DNA of 64,000 nucleotides, taken from contig CAJYAN010000005.1 of NCBI GenBank assembly GCA_913064945.1, positions 1 to 64,000 of the forward strand. Direction: 5' to 3'. The stretch comes from an uncultured Gammaproteobacteria bacterium. Its GTDB lineage: Bacteria > Pseudomonadota > Gammaproteobacteria > UBA6429 > Thiohalophilaceae. Positions 53,638 to 60,668 of this stretch are shown piece by piece (positions within the stretch are counted from its first letter, which is position 1; each line of letters starts with the position of its first letter). The position numbers and the translations under genes were made by a program. A model generated the notes under the pieces. That model was not told the DNA's origin, did not search any database, and worked only from the letters and a program-made list of their open reading frames with translations.

Positions 53638-54651
53638 ATGAGTTATCAAGTCACTTTAAAGCCCAGCAACCACCAATTTAGTGTCGAGGACGAAGAAACG
53701 GTCCTGGAAGCGGCCCTGCGTCAGGGTTTTGACCTGAATTATGGCTGTCGCAACGGTGCCTGTGGTTCATGTAGGGGTAAGGTGCTGGAGGGGGGTGTTA
53801 CCTACGGTGATCACCCGCGCGATGCCCTGGATAGTGAGGATGAAGCCGCCGGGCAGGCACTGTTCTGCCAGGCCATGCCGACGACGGACCTGGTCATCGA
53901 GGCGCACGAAATCGGCGCCGTAAAGGATATCCCCATTAAGACGCTCCCCTGTAAAGTTGCCGCGCTTGAGCGCCTAAATCACGATGTCATGCTGGTGAAG
54001 CTAAAGCTACCCGCTACCGAGCGCCTGCAGTTTCTTGCCGGACAGTATATCGACTTTCTCTTAAAAGATGGTCGCCGCCGCAGTTTCTCCATTGCCAATG
54101 CACCGCATGAAGATGACTTTATCGAACTGCATATTCGTCACGTCGAGGGCGGCCGTTTCACCTCGGAAGTATTTGATGCCATGCACACCAAAGACCTGGT
54201 TCGTATCCAGGGGCCACTGGGCAGTTTCTTTCTACGGGAAGACTCCACGCGCCCAGTGATCTTCATGGTTGGTGGCACCGGTTTTGGCCCGGTCAAAGGT
54301 ATCATCGAGCACGTACTGGCCAAGAGGATGGAGCGCCCGATGCATCTGTACTGGGGCGCTCGCGCCAAAGAAGACCTTTACATGGACGCAGAGGTGAAAG
54401 GCTGGATGCGACAATATCCATTAATCAGATACACACCGGTGTTATCGGCACCCAAAGCAGAAGATCACTGGCAGGGGCGCACCGGATATGTCCACGAGGC
54501 CATCGCCGCCGACTATGCCGACCTTGGCAGCTGCGAAATCTACGCCTCCGGCCCACCGGTGATGGTGTATGCCGGTAAAGAGGTGTTTGAAAAACAGGGA
54601 CTGGATCTCCAGCACTATTTTTCAGATGCATTTGAGTACCAGAAGGATTGA
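53638..54651 (+). CDS. 2Fe-2S/FAD/NAD reductase (CDP-6-deoxyglucoseen reductase-like)
   Basis: A 337-residue electron-transfer flavoenzyme. The plant-type 2Fe-2S domain has CRNGACGSCRGKV (37-49) and a fourth Cys in LFCQAMP. The FAD domain has RRRSFSIANAP with the RxxS motif, and the NAD domain contains VGGTGFGPVKGI and ASGPPVMVYAG. Annotation as CDP-6-deoxy-delta-3,4-glucoseen reductase is family-based. No deoxysugar genes are nearby, so in this strain it is more likely a general NAD(P)H reductase for an oxygenase. Confidence 0.9.
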   Translation: MSYQVTLKPSNHQFSVEDEETVLEAALRQGFDLNYGCRNGACGSCRGKVLEGGVTYGDHPRDALDSEDEAAGQALFCQAMPTTDLVIEAHEIGAVKDIPIKTLPCKVAALERLNHDVMLVKLKLPATERLQFLAGQYIDFLLKDGRRRSFSIANAPHEDDFIELHIRHVEGGRFTSEVFDAMHTKDLVRIQGPLGSFFLREDSTRPVIFMVGGTGFGPVKGIIEHVLAKRMERPMHLYWGARAKEDLYMDAEVKGWMRQYPLIRYTPVLSAPKAEDHWQGRTGYVHEAIAADYADLGSCEIYASGPPVMVYAGKEVFEKQGLDLQHYFSDAFEYQKD

Positions 54652-54787: not shown

Positions 54788-55258
54788 TCAGGGTGCTTGA
54801 TCCCAGATAAGATTGAGTAGACCGATTTTATCACGTTCGTGTTTTACCGGACATTGAGGACAGCCTTTTGACGTGGGTTGGTTTTGACAGCCACGACATT
54901 TTGTAATTGCCTTCATTGCCTGCAGAATCTCTTTTTTAAGGTGTTCGAGTTCAGAGAGCCTGGCAGAAATAATATCGAGCTCGTTACTAAGCTGTGCAGA
55001 GACCAGATTGCTACTCTGGTCACCCGTCTTGCATTTATCTCTGATCGAGGCGAGCTGTCGAATTGATTCGAGTGAAAAACCCTGATCCGCCAGCTGCAAA
55101 ATTGTCGTGAGCCGGGTGAGGTGTTGCTGGTGATAGAGTCGCGTCCCTCCCCCGGTTCGCAAGGGTAGCAGCAAGCCTTCCTCTTCATAATATCGTATGG
55201 TGCGGATGGTCGTACCAGCCAGGGCCGCGACCTCACCAATCTTGTATTCTTCGGCCAT
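54788..55258 (-). CDS. MerR-family regulator with a C-terminal cysteine cluster
   Basis: A 156-residue regulator. The winged helix (about 5-40) reads YKIGEVAALAGTTIRTIRYYEEEGLL. Then come a long dimerisation helix (about 85-118) and a metal-like cysteine set: Cys76, then Cys121-x2-Cys124 and Cys133-x2-Cys136. Cys76 sits where CueR/ZntR have their key ligand. It is the third gene of a compact operon with a TusA-like and a ferredoxin-fold protein. The upstream promoter carries a MerR-style operator, so it likely controls its own operon in response to a metal or persulfide. Confidence 0.9.
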   Translation of the reverse strand: MAEEYKIGEVAALAGTTIRTIRYYEEEGLLLPLRTGGGTRLYHQQHLTRLTTILQLADQGFSLESIRQLASIRDKCKTGDQSSNLVSAQLSNELDIISARLSELEHLKKEILQAMKAITKCRGCQNQPTSKGCPQCPVKHERDKIGLLNLIWDQAP

Positions 55259-55260
55259 GT

Positions 55261-55488
55261 CTATGTCTTTCTAATCCAGAAATGATAGAGATTATCGCTA
55301 CTTTCCTGTTTGATAAGTTCGTGCCTGGTCATTGCACAATAGGCGGGAATGTCACTAAGCATTGAAGATTTGTCCGAGATAACCAGAATGATGTCGCCAG
55401 GGGCATATGTCTTGAATTCCCTGGTAAGTCGAATAACGGGCGCAGAACAGCATAATCCTTTTATATCAATGACATGATCATGGGCCAT
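55261..55488 (-). CDS. TusA-like sulfurtransferase
   Basis: A 75-residue protein with the TusA fold. The active-site motif Cys-x2-Pro is Cys14-Pro17 in GLCCSAPVIRL, following IDIKG as in TusA. A second cysteine (Cys13) is adjacent, and Cys51 lies near the C-terminal half. TusA-like proteins carry persulfide sulfur between enzymes in sulfur oxidation and tRNA thiolation. It begins 14 bases after the ferredoxin-fold gene and stops 2 bases before merR, so all three form one operon. Confidence 0.88.
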   Translation of the reverse strand: MAHDHVIDIKGLCCSAPVIRLTREFKTYAPGDIILVISDKSSMLSDIPAYCAMTRHELIKQESSDNLYHFWIRKT

Positions 55489-55502
55489 GTTATCGAACCT
55501 GT

Positions 55503-55730
55503 TTATATCCCGACCAGTTGCGCGGTGTAACCATGGGCAGCGACACGGTTAAGCAGGGTCTGTGATGCGACCTCCTGTGGATTGTATGCTATTAGCAGAA
55601 GATGAGACGTTTGCCTGTTAAAGCGTGGTGCAATAACACCGTTCTGCTTACGCAGGTCCAGTTCGAGGGACTCACGTGCAGCAGGGTCAAGGCTTTCGTT
55701 GACATGGATGATCAGGTCGACAAGATTCAT
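55503..55730 (-). CDS. Small ferredoxin-fold (HMA-like) protein without the metal-binding cysteines
   Basis: A 75-residue protein with a beta-alpha-beta-beta-alpha-beta-like pattern, similar in shape to heavy-metal-associated domains: LVDLIIHVNESLD, then RESLELDLRKQNGVIA, SHLLLIAYNP and the C-terminal HGYTAQLVGI. The CxxC of metal chaperones is absent, so it does not bind metal that way. It is the first gene of the TusA/MerR operon, preceded by a good AGGAGAG site. The operon position suggests a sulfur-handling role, but there is no direct evidence. Confidence 0.75.
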   Translation of the reverse strand: MNLVDLIIHVNESLDPAARESLELDLRKQNGVIAPRFNRQTSHLLLIAYNPQEVASQTLLNRVAAHGYTAQLVGI

Positions 55731-55768
55731 TTTATCTCTCCTGTTAAAGGTGGCGTCAAACGTGTCTT

Positions 55769-55799
55769 TAAGTATCTGACGTTAACGTTAGATTGTCAA
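55769..55799 (-). promoter_or_regulatory. MerR-type promoter/operator of the TusA-like operon
   Basis: On the minus strand TTGACA (55794-55799) and TACTTA (55769-55774) are separated by 19 bases, the over-long spacer typical of MerR-activated promoters. The spacer holds a perfect 10-bp palindrome ACGTTAACGT (55779-55788), extended by ATCT/AGAT arms to a 20-bp dyad with one mismatched pair (55774-55793). It lies 39 bases upstream of the first gene. Confidence 0.85.
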
Positions 55800-55966: not shown

Positions 55967-56338
55967 TTAGTTTAAGTCCACGGCGTATTTTTTTAGTAGC
56001 TCAAGCGGGATTATTTCCAGTGCCTTCTGATGTGTTCTTGTCAGGTGAACTTTTGGCGCCATGCCACCTTCCAGTGCCTCCAGCCACCTGGCCGCACATA
56101 AACACCAGCTATTACCAGGTTTCACACCCTTAAAATCGAATTCCGGAACCGGGGTCGATAAATCATTGCCCTTAAGTCTTGAGAATTCGAGAAATTCCTT
56201 CGAGGCTTTAATACAGACAGTGTGTGACCCTGCATCTTCATCACAGGTATTGCATTTGCCATCACGATAAAATCCTGTCACCGGGTCTTCACCACACAAT
56301 TCCAAGGTTTCACCAAGAACATTGATTGATTTATCCAT
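55967..56338 (-). CDS. DUF2237 family protein
   Basis: A 123-residue cytoplasmic protein of the DUF2237 family, which is rich in conserved cysteines: one in LCGEDPVTGFYRDG, then CNTCDEDAGSHTVC, and LCAARWLEAL near the C-terminus. Function unknown, though a metal or Fe-S role is plausible. The gene is 235 bases from the MerR operon with no structure seen between, apart from that operon's promoter. It is minus-strand and monocistronic. Confidence 0.92.
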   Translation of the reverse strand: MDKSINVLGETLELCGEDPVTGFYRDGKCNTCDEDAGSHTVCIKASKEFLEFSRLKGNDLSTPVPEFDFKGVKPGNSWCLCAARWLEALEGGMAPKVHLTRTHQKALEIIPLELLKKYAVDLN

Positions 56339-56475: not shown

Positions 56476-57684
56476 TTAACTTACCAACTCTGTTTGTCGT
56501 TGTTCTTTGACTGCCTGCTTCAATCCCTCCCGGAAGTACGCCGCGGCCATGTCCGGTTCTTCGAGTTTTTCCAGCATGCTTGCCAGTTCTTCATAGGCCT
56601 CAACCGTGGGTGTGCTATGCAGGCTGGTTTCAAAAAAACTGCGTGCCTTGCCCCAGAGCTTCTGTCGCGCACATATGCGTCCGAGTGTGAGTAGCAGGGG
56701 GGCATTGGTTTCATGACCCTTCAACCAGGACTCGGCAGTCGCCAGTTGTTTTTCCGGATAGCTAGTCTCGGCCAGACCATAGAGATGTACCAGTGTCGGA
56801 TGCCATTGTCGCTTGATGGCGTCTTTAAGAATAGATTCGGCATCATCGAATAATTTTTGCCGGATCAGACTACGGGTATAACGGCAGAGGACATCGATGT
56901 CGTATCGCAGTATTTTGGGGACGCGCTGCCACTGGGCAAAAAGTGCATCCGGCTTGTTTTGTTTGGCCGCGATACTGAACAGCTCAAGCTGTACGGCCTT
57001 TTCTAGCTCGACTAGTTCTTCGTCGTTGAGGACGTGTTGCTTGCGTAGTGCTGGTAATAGCTCCTGTAAATCTCCCCAGCTTTTTAGCTGTCGATACAAC
57101 TGGCTCAATAAAAAAAGCACATGCGGATGTTTGGGTGATTTGCGTCGTAATTGTTCCAACGTGGCGAGGGCCTGTTCGCGTTGATGATGGGCGAACTGTA
57201 GTTCCGCCTGTGTTAACTGTATGGCGAATTCTGAACCGGCGGTGCTCTTATGTGCCTCGGCCAGATAAAAGTCACGACGTTCCGGGGCATTAAGCTTTTG
57301 TGCAGCGCGGGCGGCCGATAAATAATTTAACAGTGGCACATCGCTATGGGCCGCCCCCTTGAGTAATTTTTTCTCGGCCTGCTTCCAGTGACCCTGTGCC
57401 AGTTCAATCAGGCCTGCATTTGAGGCCGACTGGGCGTTGTGACTAAGGTGTTGTACCCGCCAATGACGAAATTGATCTGACATGTTCCACGTGCGAATCA
57501 TCAGACGCAGGATAAGATACAGCGTTGTAAAACTGACCAGTACGGCAACAACAAAGAGTGACAGGCTCATTTCCAGTGTCGTATGGCCTCGACCAAACAA
57601 TACATAGCCGGGGTCCTGGTGCGCCAGCAGGCCAACAATCACGGCCAGGGTAAAGACCAGCAGGGTGAGAAACAGTTTTTTCAT
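56476..57684 (-). CDS. hemY: HemY, haem-biosynthesis-associated TPR membrane protein
   Basis: A 402-residue protein with two N-terminal membrane helices (about 5-22 and 40-63), then a cytoplasmic/periplasmic TPR-like helical domain. The second loop has GRGHTTLEMSL, and the TPR region includes LIELAQGHWKQAEKKLLKGA. Its exact role is unsettled; it may organise the haem-synthesis complex. It begins 4 bases inside the hemX end, the standard hemC-hemD-hemX-hemY order. Confidence 0.95.
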   Translation of the reverse strand: MKKLFLTLLVFTLAVIVGLLAHQDPGYVLFGRGHTTLEMSLSLFVVAVLVSFTTLYLILRLMIRTWNMSDQFRHWRVQHLSHNAQSASNAGLIELAQGHWKQAEKKLLKGAAHSDVPLLNYLSAARAAQKLNAPERRDFYLAEAHKSTAGSEFAIQLTQAELQFAHHQREQALATLEQLRRKSPKHPHVLFLLSQLYRQLKSWGDLQELLPALRKQHVLNDEELVELEKAVQLELFSIAAKQNKPDALFAQWQRVPKILRYDIDVLCRYTRSLIRQKLFDDAESILKDAIKRQWHPTLVHLYGLAETSYPEKQLATAESWLKGHETNAPLLLTLGRICARQKLWGKARSFFETSLHSTPTVEAYEELASMLEKLEEPDMAAAYFREGLKQAVKEQRQTELVS

Positions 57685-58913
57685 AGCGGTACCTTGCTAC
57701 TATTCGGCGCAGACTGATGCTGGTCATTGGCGGTATTTTTTTCGGGCGTTTTATATTTACGGGTTTTCTTCCTGTGGCTGATATTTTTGGTGGACTTCTC
57801 CACTGGAGACTTGTTTGTTGTCGGCGCAGGCGGGTTTTGTTTTATATCCGTTTGAGCGGGCACCATATCTGCCATATAAGACTTGAGTGCCTGATAACTT
57901 TTTTCGATATTGGGTATCTCTGGTTCGATATTAATGGCGGCCAGTTGTTGCAGACTTTGCAGTGTGTTTTGCACCATGGGGTCTTTTAAATCGAAAAATC
58001 GCTGTAGCCATGCCTGAGCCGTTTGCATGCGTTCGGTAAAGACTTTGCCTTTGCCCAGCAATAAGGCAAGGCGCGCCTGCTCTAGTTGCAGATGCAGGTT
58101 TTGTAGTAAATAAAATTGTTCTTTCGGGCTCAGCAGGGGAACAATGTTGGTGTTGTGCTGACGAATCCTCACCAGTGTCTTGAGTTCCTGCCAGATGGCC
58201 GCGGGGATGGCTCTCCAGTTAGTAAAAGTTTCACCTGTCTTTTGTACTACCGGGGTTGACGGCTGCTCCGGCGTGGAGGCATTGAGTGGTAGCTTATCGA
58301 TGTTGTTGATCAGGGCGGAGAGGGTTAACGACATGCCGGTAATATCTGCGCCCGATATGTTTCGGAGTGCATTTTCATCGTCGGCCAGCAGCTTGCGCAC
58401 GGTGAGCAGTGCCGGGTCGCCAATATCGCGCAGGCGCTCGTCGGCGATACGCATGGCTCGTAGTGCTGTGTTGGTATCCCGTTCCAGTTGCAGGCGATAA
58501 CTGGCGAGCTTTAACAGGTATTCCGCCTCGCCAAGTAACCAGTCCTTGCGCAGGTGTTCATTACGTTTGAGCAATGTTGAGAGGTTGTCGCGTAACTCAT
58601 CCTGGGAGCGTTGCTGCCGGGCAAGTGTCTCCTGCAGGCCGTTGAGTTGGTTCTGCGATTGCTGCTGTACGGCCTGAAGTTTTTCACGTAGCACGTTGAT
58701 CGCATCCTGCTGCTGTACATTCTGGCGGCTCATGGTCTGAAACAGCCAGACACCGCCGACAATACTGCCAAGCAGGAGTAGTCCAATGATGGGTAACAGC
58801 AGAGGGCGGGAGGTTTTTTTATCTGACTGGCCGCGCCGTGAGGGTTTTTCCGGCGGCGTTTTGGTCGACGTCCCGGTCTTGTCATTCGCATTGGAATTTT
58901 CTGTTGTACTCAC
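57681..58913 (-). CDS. hemX: HemX, uroporphyrinogen-III C-methyltransferase-like membrane protein
   Basis: A 410-residue protein with a cytoplasmic Lys/Thr-rich N-terminus, one membrane helix (about 38-60), a periplasmic coiled coil (about 70-130), then the HemX helical domain with NEHLRKDWLLGEAEYLLKLA. There is a Lys/Pro-rich disordered C-terminus. It is named for distant similarity but lacks the methyltransferase motif, so methylation is unlikely. A protein partner of HemY is the better guess. Confidence 0.94.
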   Translation of the reverse strand: MSTTENSNANDKTGTSTKTPPEKPSRRGQSDKKTSRPLLLPIIGLLLLGSIVGGVWLFQTMSRQNVQQQDAINVLREKLQAVQQQSQNQLNGLQETLARQQRSQDELRDNLSTLLKRNEHLRKDWLLGEAEYLLKLASYRLQLERDTNTALRAMRIADERLRDIGDPALLTVRKLLADDENALRNISGADITGMSLTLSALINNIDKLPLNASTPEQPSTPVVQKTGETFTNWRAIPAAIWQELKTLVRIRQHNTNIVPLLSPKEQFYLLQNLHLQLEQARLALLLGKGKVFTERMQTAQAWLQRFFDLKDPMVQNTLQSLQQLAAINIEPEIPNIEKSYQALKSYMADMVPAQTDIKQNPPAPTTNKSPVEKSTKNISHRKKTRKYKTPEKNTANDQHQSAPNSSKVPL

Positions 58914-58948
58914 CGCAAATCCTTAGTTCTATTAGGTCAGTTTAAAAT

Positions 58949-59749
58949 TTAATCATTCGGCTGTTGCTGCCGCCATTTTATTATGGCACTTAACAGGGCG
59001 GCGTCATTAGTTTCTGTTGCCACGGCAGGAATTATTTTGAAGCCCATGCGGCGAGCCGCATCCACCTGTCGTGGATGAATAACAAACAATGGCCGAGACC
59101 ACAACCAGGGGGCCATCGATTCTGCCAGTAACTGAATAAGATTTTGCAGGCCCTCAACACTGGTGGCTGTAATGACATCGACCTGCTGACGCAGTGCATC
59201 TCGATGTTGTTCAGTATTGATGTCCGGCAGGCCTCGGCGATAGACGTTGGCGTAGTGTACAACGGCACCACGCTGTTGCAGCGTGTCACCAAGCAGGGGT
59301 CGACCACCTTCACCACGGATAATGATAATTCGCTGACCTCTGACCTGTTGCAGTTCCGGGTGGAGCAGAAGGGCCTCGCTATTATTGTCACCTTGCGGGA
59401 TGAGATCGGCGCGGAGGCCAAAGGTCGTGGCAAAGGCCTGAGCCGTGGCCTGGCCAATGGCGGCGGTCCTGATCGGGTTCGGCCAGTTACCGACCGGGCC
59501 AAGCAGCACGCGGCTGTATTCCACCGCATTGGCGCTGATGAAAATCAGCCGGTCATTTTCCAGCAAGTGTCCGAGTAGCCCCCTGGCCTGGTGTTGAGCA
59601 GCCTGATTGCTAGGCTCAATAGAGATGGTCGGCAGAGAATAGGGACGACCCCCGGCGGCCTCGATTAACTGACAGAGGTTATTGGCCTGATGGGCCGGTC
59701 GGGTCACCAGGACCCCGAGTCCTTGCAGGTCGTTACTGCCCTTCGGCAT
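58949..59749 (-). CDS. hemD: Uroporphyrinogen-III synthase
   Basis: Cyclises hydroxymethylbilane with inversion of ring D, giving uroporphyrinogen III. 266 residues of two domains, with [12 protein letters not shown] near the start, then VGNWPNP and [13 protein letters not shown]. Sequence in this family is weakly conserved, but position after hemC confirms it. It starts at ATG 59749, overlapping hemC by 17 bases. A longer frame to 59779 is less likely. Confidence 0.93.
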
Positions 59750-60668
59750 ACAGGGCATCCAGAATTTCCCTGGCGCCACGGCTCAACAGGTCATCGGCCA
59801 GCACCTCGCCCAATTCCTCGGCATTTTCCGGTGGCCCCGCGATTTCGCCGGTAATGATGTCGCTGCCATCAGGGTTGCCGACCAGGCCACGTAGCAGCAA
59901 GAGGCCGTGACTGATCTCGGCATAACCGCCGATTGGCACCTGGCAGCCACCCTGTAGGCGTCTGTTCATAGCGCGCTCGGCCAATACGCGGGTCTGGGTG
60001 AGCGGGTCATTGAGCGGGGCCAGTAGGTGGTGCATGCGCTCATCATCAGTACGACACTCGATACCGACTGCCCCCTGGCCGATAGCCGGCAGGCTGATAG
60101 CGGGATCCAGGGCCTCGGCAATACGGTCTTCGAAGCCCAGGCGCTTCAGACCGGCCGCGGCCAGGATAATGGCGTCATAGTGGCCGTCATCGAGTTTCTG
60201 TAAGCGAGTATTCACATTGCCGCGCAGGTCGATAATCTCCAGATCGGGGCGCATGGCCCGGAGCTGGCACTGGCGGCGCAGACTGGAGGTACCGACCCGT
60301 GCCCCTCTGGGTAATGTATCAAAATTGGCAATGGTATTAGAGACGAAGGCATCGCGCGGGTCTTCCCGTGGGCAGATCACCGCCAGGTGCAGTCCGTCGG
60401 GGAACTCTACCGGCACGTCTTTCATAGAGTGCACGGCGATATCGGCACTGCCTTCGAGCATGCCCTGTTCCAGCTCCTTGACAAAGAGGCCCTTGCCGCC
60501 GACCTTGGCCAGCGGGGTATCGAGGATCTTGTCGCCCTTGGTGGTCATGGGGACCAGCTCGACCTGAAGGTCGGGGTGGAAGCGTTGTAGCTGGCTTTTG
60601 ACATATTCCGCCTGCCACAGGGCAAGCTGACTCTGGCGGGTGGCAATACGGACGGGGGTATCTGGCAT
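59733..60668 (-). CDS. hemC: Hydroxymethylbilane synthase (porphobilinogen deaminase)
   Basis: Polymerises four porphobilinogens into hydroxymethylbilane. 311 residues with [16 protein letters not shown] at the N-terminus, [26 protein letters not shown], and the cofactor-binding Cys in [13 protein letters not shown]. It is the first gene of the hemCDXY operon, whose promoter region is shared with the divergent thioredoxin-like gene. Confidence 0.97.

Follow-up and report, generated by a model that had tools for sequence, protein, structure and literature searches.

The CstR and YrkD clusters (CsoR family; S. aureus, B. licheniformis) offer the nearest working analogy to the operon described here. 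As set out in passages of PMC9774590 and PMC9918477, CstR and YrkD are repressors from a metal-sensor family, they stand over clusters with DsrE- and TusA-type carriers, and they leave the DNA when modified by sulfane sulfur. The second group for comparison is formed by the MerR-family metalloregulators, in which activation is tied to promoter spacers of 19–20 bp in the account given in part of PMC9909328. Shortening of the spacer is described there, and in a passage of PMC8113463, as leaving MerR promoters unresponsive to activation, and a 1997 title cited in PMC9909328 states that spacing turns SoxR from an activator into a repressor.

The DNA analysed, called the window, is a stretch of 64,000 nucleotides from an uncultured gammaproteobacterium. 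It contains a three-gene operon, A-B-C, that shares with the CstR and YrkD clusters, as far as those passages describe them, a metal-sensor-family regulator with functional cysteines over sulfur-carrier genes; the carrier here is the TusA-like B, present in A-B-C at eight loci. The likeness is one of analogy and not of membership: the regulator C is of MerR type and lacks the CsoR fold, the operon, of only three genes, lacks SQR and persulfide dioxygenase and includes an HMA-fold protein (A), and sulfane-sulfur sensing by C is only putative. Neither an A-B-C operon nor a MerR-family persulfide sensor was found in the titles and abstract openings of the open-licence papers listed, and the word MerR is absent from the reactive-sulfur-sensing review PMC9774590. 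The picture in the initial annotation, of sulfur-carrier genes governed by a MerR-type protein rich in Cys, is a fair one.

The three genes and their products

The genes are transcribed in the order A, B, C, with intergenic gaps of 14 bp between A and B and 2 bp between B and C (Table 1); C falls beyond positions 55261–55799, the interval covered by the initial annotation. The DUF2237 gene (174 bits) at the upstream flank of A lies outside the conserved cassette. An apparent heme-synthesis cluster is located upstream of the operon at 56476–60668 of the window.

Table 1. Features of the A-B-C operon and its surroundings, in window coordinates
Feature	Position	Strand	Basis
Ferredoxin-type reductase gene, downstream flank of the operon	53638-54651	plus	
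Gene C, 156 aa, MerR-type; Cys76 and tail C121xxC124-x8-C133xxC136	54788-55258	minus	Pfam
Gene B, 75 aa, TusA family; CCSAP (C13, C14) and C51	55261-55488	minus	Pfam
Gene A, 75 aa, HMA/CopZ-fold protein without CxxC	55503-55730	minus	ORF and predicted fold
-10 hexamer GATACT, 17 bp from -35, 3-bp overlap with the operator	55771-55776	minus	promoter scans
Predicted operator ATCTAACGTTAACGTCAGAT (minus-strand sequence), ATCT-N12-AGAT	55774-55793	minus	9/10 pairs, conserved between genomes
-35 hexamer TTGACA	55794-55799	minus	promoter scans
DUF2237 gene, upstream flank of A	55967-56338	minus	
Gene with HemY_N domain	56476-57684		Pfam
hemX-like gene	57681-58913		by-eye reading
hemD-like gene	58949-59779		by-eye reading
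hemC-like gene	59733-60668		by-eye reading

The product of gene A is predicted to adopt a beta-alpha-beta-beta-alpha-beta fold (pLDDT 92.5, pTM 0.78), and its nearest folds are HMA metal-binding domains, with a TM score of 0.89 to 6a71, an ATP7B domain. Its sequence profile matches CopA-type domains (CopA 1p6t, E 8.3e-10). No Pfam family scores above its cut-off, the HMA model gives no match at E <= 1, and a BRCT match (E 0.005) was under the cut-off and was dismissed as noise. Thus A resembles the HMA domains and copper chaperones (CopZ, ATP7B, MerP) in predicted fold (TM up to 0.89) and profile matches, but differs from them in lacking the CxxC metal-binding motif and in having two invariant histidines, His9 and His43, in 48 rows; the window copy contains no Cys at all.

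Gene B exceeds the cut-off of the TusA family (PF01206; E 8.3e-18, 64.4 bits vs 28.6), stays under that of the NCBIfam TusA equivalog (60 bits vs 78), and matches the solved E. coli TusA in profile at E 3e-11. The motif Cys and the last Pro are common to B and TusA, both that of E. coli and those of sulfur oxidisers. Unlike TusA, B always adjoins A and carries CCSAP in place of CPxP in all nine rows, with Ser at the first Pro; C13, C14 and C51 are invariant in the same number of rows. The source genome has five TusA-family matches, B included, among the 63 matches to PF01206 found in 16 genomes, and CCSAP occurs in none of the 29 readable motifs from the 30 matches fetched. Two of these 29 TusA proteins (L122 1495-1731 and L123 1495-1758) read CCPMP, a vicinal Cys pair with the usual Pro kept.

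Gene C is over the Pfam cut-offs for PF13411 (MerR_1; 75.1 bits vs 21.6, E 4.7e-21) and PF00376 (52.3 vs 28.2), and under the cut-off for all 22 NCBIfam families that it matches. The best-scoring of these are ZntR (70.7 bits vs 143), CueR (66.3 vs 147.4), CadR (63.4 vs 151.45) and MerR (56.9 vs 150.85), and the best solved relatives in the profile search are CadR proteins. C shares with these metalloregulators the N-terminal MerR HTH and a long dimerisation helix (residues 79–122 in the predicted monomer, mean pLDDT 92.8), but is distinguished from them by its scores under the NCBIfam cut-offs, its Cys pattern and its 17-bp promoter. Four cysteines at the end of the predicted helix, C121, C124, C133 and C136, are invariant in 22 of 22 rows. 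Position 76 is Cys in ten rows, which comprise all eight rows from complete A-B-C loci plus G001 and G068, Ser in ten, and another residue in two; the Ser rows include G253, G293 and G182, all of which bear the operator described below (weak in G293). Cys76 was consequently rejected as the decisive residue, and the four-Cys tail is ranked before it. The profile alignment has a 3-residue gap in CadR near Cys76, which is therefore no plain equivalent of the CadR cysteine there.

The gene content recorded in the initial annotation agrees with these results: three close-set minus-strand genes, a 75-aa ferredoxin-fold protein, a 75-aa TusA-like protein with Cys-x2-Pro (C14-S-A-P17, the adjoining C13 having gone unmentioned), and a MerR protein with Cys76 and two CxxC motifs. 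Together with the dyad upstream of A, this is the part of its observation that stands; the 19-bp promoter spacer that it also reported was not confirmed.

Distribution and association with sulfur metabolism

Gene A was matched in 22 of 58 genomes, source genome included, and C adjoins A in seven of these (G000, G001, G012, G014, G028, G033 and G035). The search gave 25 matches, of which 20 were fetched as loci and three more (L037–L039) were inspected, where C is absent beside A; G017 and G036 were left out. A profile of four B proteins found seven loci in a collection of named genomes, assigned to Betaproteobacteria, Gammaproteobacteria, Chromatiales and Candidatus Thiodiazotropha. A lies directly upstream of B at all seven and C directly downstream at six, the contig of the remaining one (L056) stopping 36 bp past B. 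With L057 and L059 counted once, being contigs already found in G035 and G014, A-B occurs at nine distinct loci, B is paired with A at each of them, and A-B-C is complete at eight: the window, G167 (L044), L054, L055, L057, L058, L059 and L060. These are all the loci at which the contig continues; the ninth meets a contig edge. Thus the gene order expected by the initial annotation is indeed conserved between genomes. Neighbouring genes vary from locus to locus, and conservation is therefore limited to the cassette itself rather than extending to a larger block. Across the eight triads the protein distances correlate, with Spearman coefficients of 0.53 for A-B, 0.77 for A-C and 0.70 for B-C (28 pairs).

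Ten more genomes carry A and C without B, in the order A-C (G001, G012, G028, G033, G068, G182, G253, G293 and G301) or C-A (G271). A search of 369 genomes of the class for C gave at least 13 matches (up to 10 candidates scored per genome; absences are soft), with A adjoining in nine of these genomes and C without A in four of the 13. The A profile matches at least 72 of the 369 at E <= 1e-6 (up to 15 candidates scored per genome; absences again soft); C adjoins A at nine of 30 fetched loci and not at 21; at one of the latter (L084) a MerR-type gene other than C is close by. The bond of the three genes is therefore not tight: A is often alone, and B is always with A. Two lone A genes (L021 7799-8026 in G020, L022 4435-4662 in G010) have common methyltransferase-like and cysteine synthase-like neighbours as read by eye. 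A further gene, X, of about 237 aa, is found directly 3' of C, or of C-A, in G012, G271, G207, G119 and G125 (L026 9145-9858, L050 424-1134, L046 669-1469, L051 782-1510 and L052 721-1410, respectively); the three copies tested have no Pfam match at E <= 0.01.

The association of the cassette with sulfur metabolism has support from adjoining genes and from co-occurrence. In G028 and G301 A-C is preceded by a DsrE2 gene (PF13686; 154 and 160 bits) in the same orientation, and in G012 a short DsrE2-like ORF occupies the upstream position. At L071 (1498-2353) a lone A points away from a DsrE2-like gene; the latter is broken into two ORFs, 1870-2154 and 2162-2353, which may reflect a frameshift.

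The dsrA gene, which in this class we take to be a mark of sulfur oxidisers, is present in the source genome, in keeping with the initial annotation of the host as a sulfur oxidiser. It was found in 14 of 16 genomes tested and is over the cut-off in 12 of the 14 A-C genomes among them, including four of four with the complete triad; the two in which it is not are G028 and G271. In the class sample dsrA is over the curated cut-off in at least 112 of 369 genomes (up to four candidates scored per genome; absences are soft). Fisher tests, which counted 115 genomes with dsrA at E <= 1e-100 (112 over the curated cut-off) and ignored shared ancestry, gave p 5e-4 for A-C, accompanied by dsrA in eight of nine genomes, and p 1.6e-15 for A at E <= 1e-14, accompanied by dsrA in 43 of 54, with seeds for A largely from relatives of the source organism; both values are ancestry-uncorrected. 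The wider A family at E <= 1e-6, mostly without C (L064, L071, L073, L074 and other lone A loci), has dsrA in 58 of 72 genomes.

Operator and promoter

The 20-bp dyad with one mismatched pair that had been reported upstream of A was found again (Table 1). As a bare palindrome it is unremarkable and was rejected as evidence: the whole window holds five 20-mers of this quality, where an order-1 Markov control averages 2.2, and about 0.008 would be expected in the 245-bp interval that precedes A. The dyad is judged to be real because it is conserved between genomes. It is present in 14 of 21 upstream regions of A, belonging to nine A-B loci and five A-C loci, although weak at L070 (score 8.3). 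The seven regions without it are the five A-C loci L072, L026, L036, L033 (an upstream region of 63 bp only) and L050, and the lone A loci L002 and L003. From these comparisons the dyad is taken as the conserved operator of the A-B-C cassette. The operator matrix was built from 12 sites and then scored on them; genome-wide pattern searches served as the independent test.

Sites with up to two mismatches are confined to this operon in all seven genomes searched. At three mismatches, the same scan gave five off-operon sites (L098, L101, L103, L104 and L105) vs three for a reversed control pattern, and the dyad is not immediately preceded by TTGACA at any of the five. A slightly more permissive pattern, run over 369 genomes, matches exactly in three of them, each time at the operon, and with one mismatch in eight, comprising G068 at the operon and seven sites off it; the one-mismatch pattern misses the degenerate operators of G253, G182 and G293. 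The reversed control gave seven one-mismatch sites in six genomes. All seven off-operon sites are within ORFs of at least 80 aa, and none of A, B, C, DsrE2 and X was found in the stretches fetched around them. A wider regulon was rejected, as the off-operon sites are near control numbers and either lack TTGACA or lie inside ORFs. The exact matches, placed only at the operon, suggest that C probably has a single target, its own operon.

The top promoter match in the window, TTGACA-17-GATACT at 55799–55771, agrees with consensus at 10 of 12 positions. A separate scan also gives 17 bp, with three promoter-like sites in 1.4 kb vs 1.8 in shuffles, so that a lone match means little; scores rest on approximate hexamer frequencies. 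At 11 of the 14 operator-bearing loci the operator occupies the spacer of a promoter close to consensus, TTGAC[A/T]-17-[G/A]AT[A/T][A/C]T, the spacer of 17 bp is the top-scoring reading at each of the 11, and the operator centre is always 12.5 bp before the end of the -10 hexamer. A second operator copy centred 11.5–13.5 bp past the -10 end, and covering the likely start site, accompanies the first at seven of the 11, while the window, L044, L054 and L057 have a single copy. At the other three loci (L061, L070 and L078) the promoter calls are weaker and the sole copy is centred 6.5, 19.5 and 11.5 bp, respectively, past the end of the best -10. A spacing of 17 bp, an operator overlapping the -10 and, often, a second one over the start region point to repression with autoregulation; this arrangement suggests that C does not act by classic MerR activation.

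The initial annotation had instead seen a classic long-spacer MerR-activator promoter. In that case C would activate transcription from TTGACA-19-TACTTA, the GATACT at 17 bp would be incidental, and any signal would be compatible. This is unlikely, though the dyad does fill the spacer, its own AGAT would supply the GAT of the 17-bp hexamer, and spacers of 19–20 bp are typical for MerR-type regulators according to PMC9909328. TACTTA agrees with TATAAT at only two of six positions in the window, and at L044 the 19-bp reading scores 5.8 vs 12.9 for 17 bp. The terminal T of the -10 sits outside the dyad, yet is kept in 11 of 11 loci, and a second operator over the start region at seven of them is ill-suited to activation. 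Of the interpretation given in the initial annotation, the co-conserved gene order and the conserved operator hold, and the long-spacer activator promoter with its 19-bp spacer is not supported.

Possible signal and function

It is proposed, tentatively and with somewhat less than even confidence, that A-B-C is a self-contained cassette for sulfur handling, with autoregulation, in which C represses the operon until a sulfane-sulfur signal arrives, B carries sulfur, and A is an accessory protein. C would bind, as a putative MerR-fold dimer, to the ATCT-N12-AGAT operator inside a strong sigma-70 promoter with a 17-bp spacer, and in many relatives also to the second copy over the start site, and would thereby repress the operon, its sole target. 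The CX2C-X8-CX2C cluster of C would be altered, perhaps with the assistance of Cys76, by a thiophilic signal, for which sulfane sulfur (persulfide or polysulfide) is the likeliest candidate, and repression would be lifted. B may then take up or hand on sulfane sulfur at Cys13-Cys14, and the HMA-fold A, with its two invariant His and Cys-less in the window, may serve as an accessory partner. Sulfane sulfur is favoured as the signal of C by analogy with CstR and YrkD, which follow this logic with a different fold.

Several observations count against a sulfane-sulfur cassette. The window A has no Cys with which to carry sulfur, C is missing from 21 of 30 A loci, B has Ser at the first Pro of CPxP, and no gene for a sulfide-oxidising enzyme is found within the three-gene operon. 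Only one operator is present in the window, L044, L054 and L057, seven of 21 upstream regions have none, and two genomes with A-C (G028 and G271) have no dsrA over the cut-off.

The fold and profile matches of A to HMA domains (TM 0.89 to the ATP7B domain; CopA 1p6t at E 8.3e-10), and the placing of ZntR, CueR, CadR and MerR as best NCBIfam models and of CadR as best solved relatives of C, would also fit a metal or metalloid cassette, in which C responds at its Cys cluster to zinc, copper, cadmium or arsenite, A acts as a metallochaperone with His ligands, and Cys13-Cys14 of B bind metal instead of carrying sulfur. Such a role is rather unlikely, since A is without CxxC, C remains under the cut-off of all 22 NCBIfam families (ZntR 70.7 bits vs 143), by-eye inspection of the loci examined showed neither a metal transporter nor a P-type ATPase beside the operon, and the DsrE2 genes adjoining A-C, with the dsrA association, point to sulfur. 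The four C-terminal cysteines of C, which lie where the predicted dimerisation helix ends and are kept in all 22 rows, might alternatively hold an iron-sulfur cluster, making the operon a response to oxidative or nitrosative stress rather than to sulfane sulfur as such; their position is roughly that at which SoxR bears its cluster. The SoxR model, however, gives 38.5 bits vs a cut-off of 116.9, and the CX2C-X8-CX2C spacing of C is unlike that of SoxR, which is CX2CXCX5C; zinc sites, too, often have spacing of the type seen in C. That C is a redox or Fe-S sensor is hence distinctly improbable.

The sulfane-sulfur reading can be widened to a new family of MerR-fold sulfane-sulfur sensors, counterparts of CstR, acting as pure repressors on a natural 17-bp promoter, with one three-gene target and a Cys-less HMA-fold partner, which is possible but doubtful. 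If C does sense sulfane sulfur, it would represent a second metal-sensing family turned to sulfur sensing, in parallel to CsoR and CstR. With its natural 17-bp promoter, C would be a repressor of MerR fold, in testable departure from activation through distortion of the DNA; the conserved operator offers a ready assay. The cassette also ties the undescribed proteins A and X to sulfur-oxidising bacteria.
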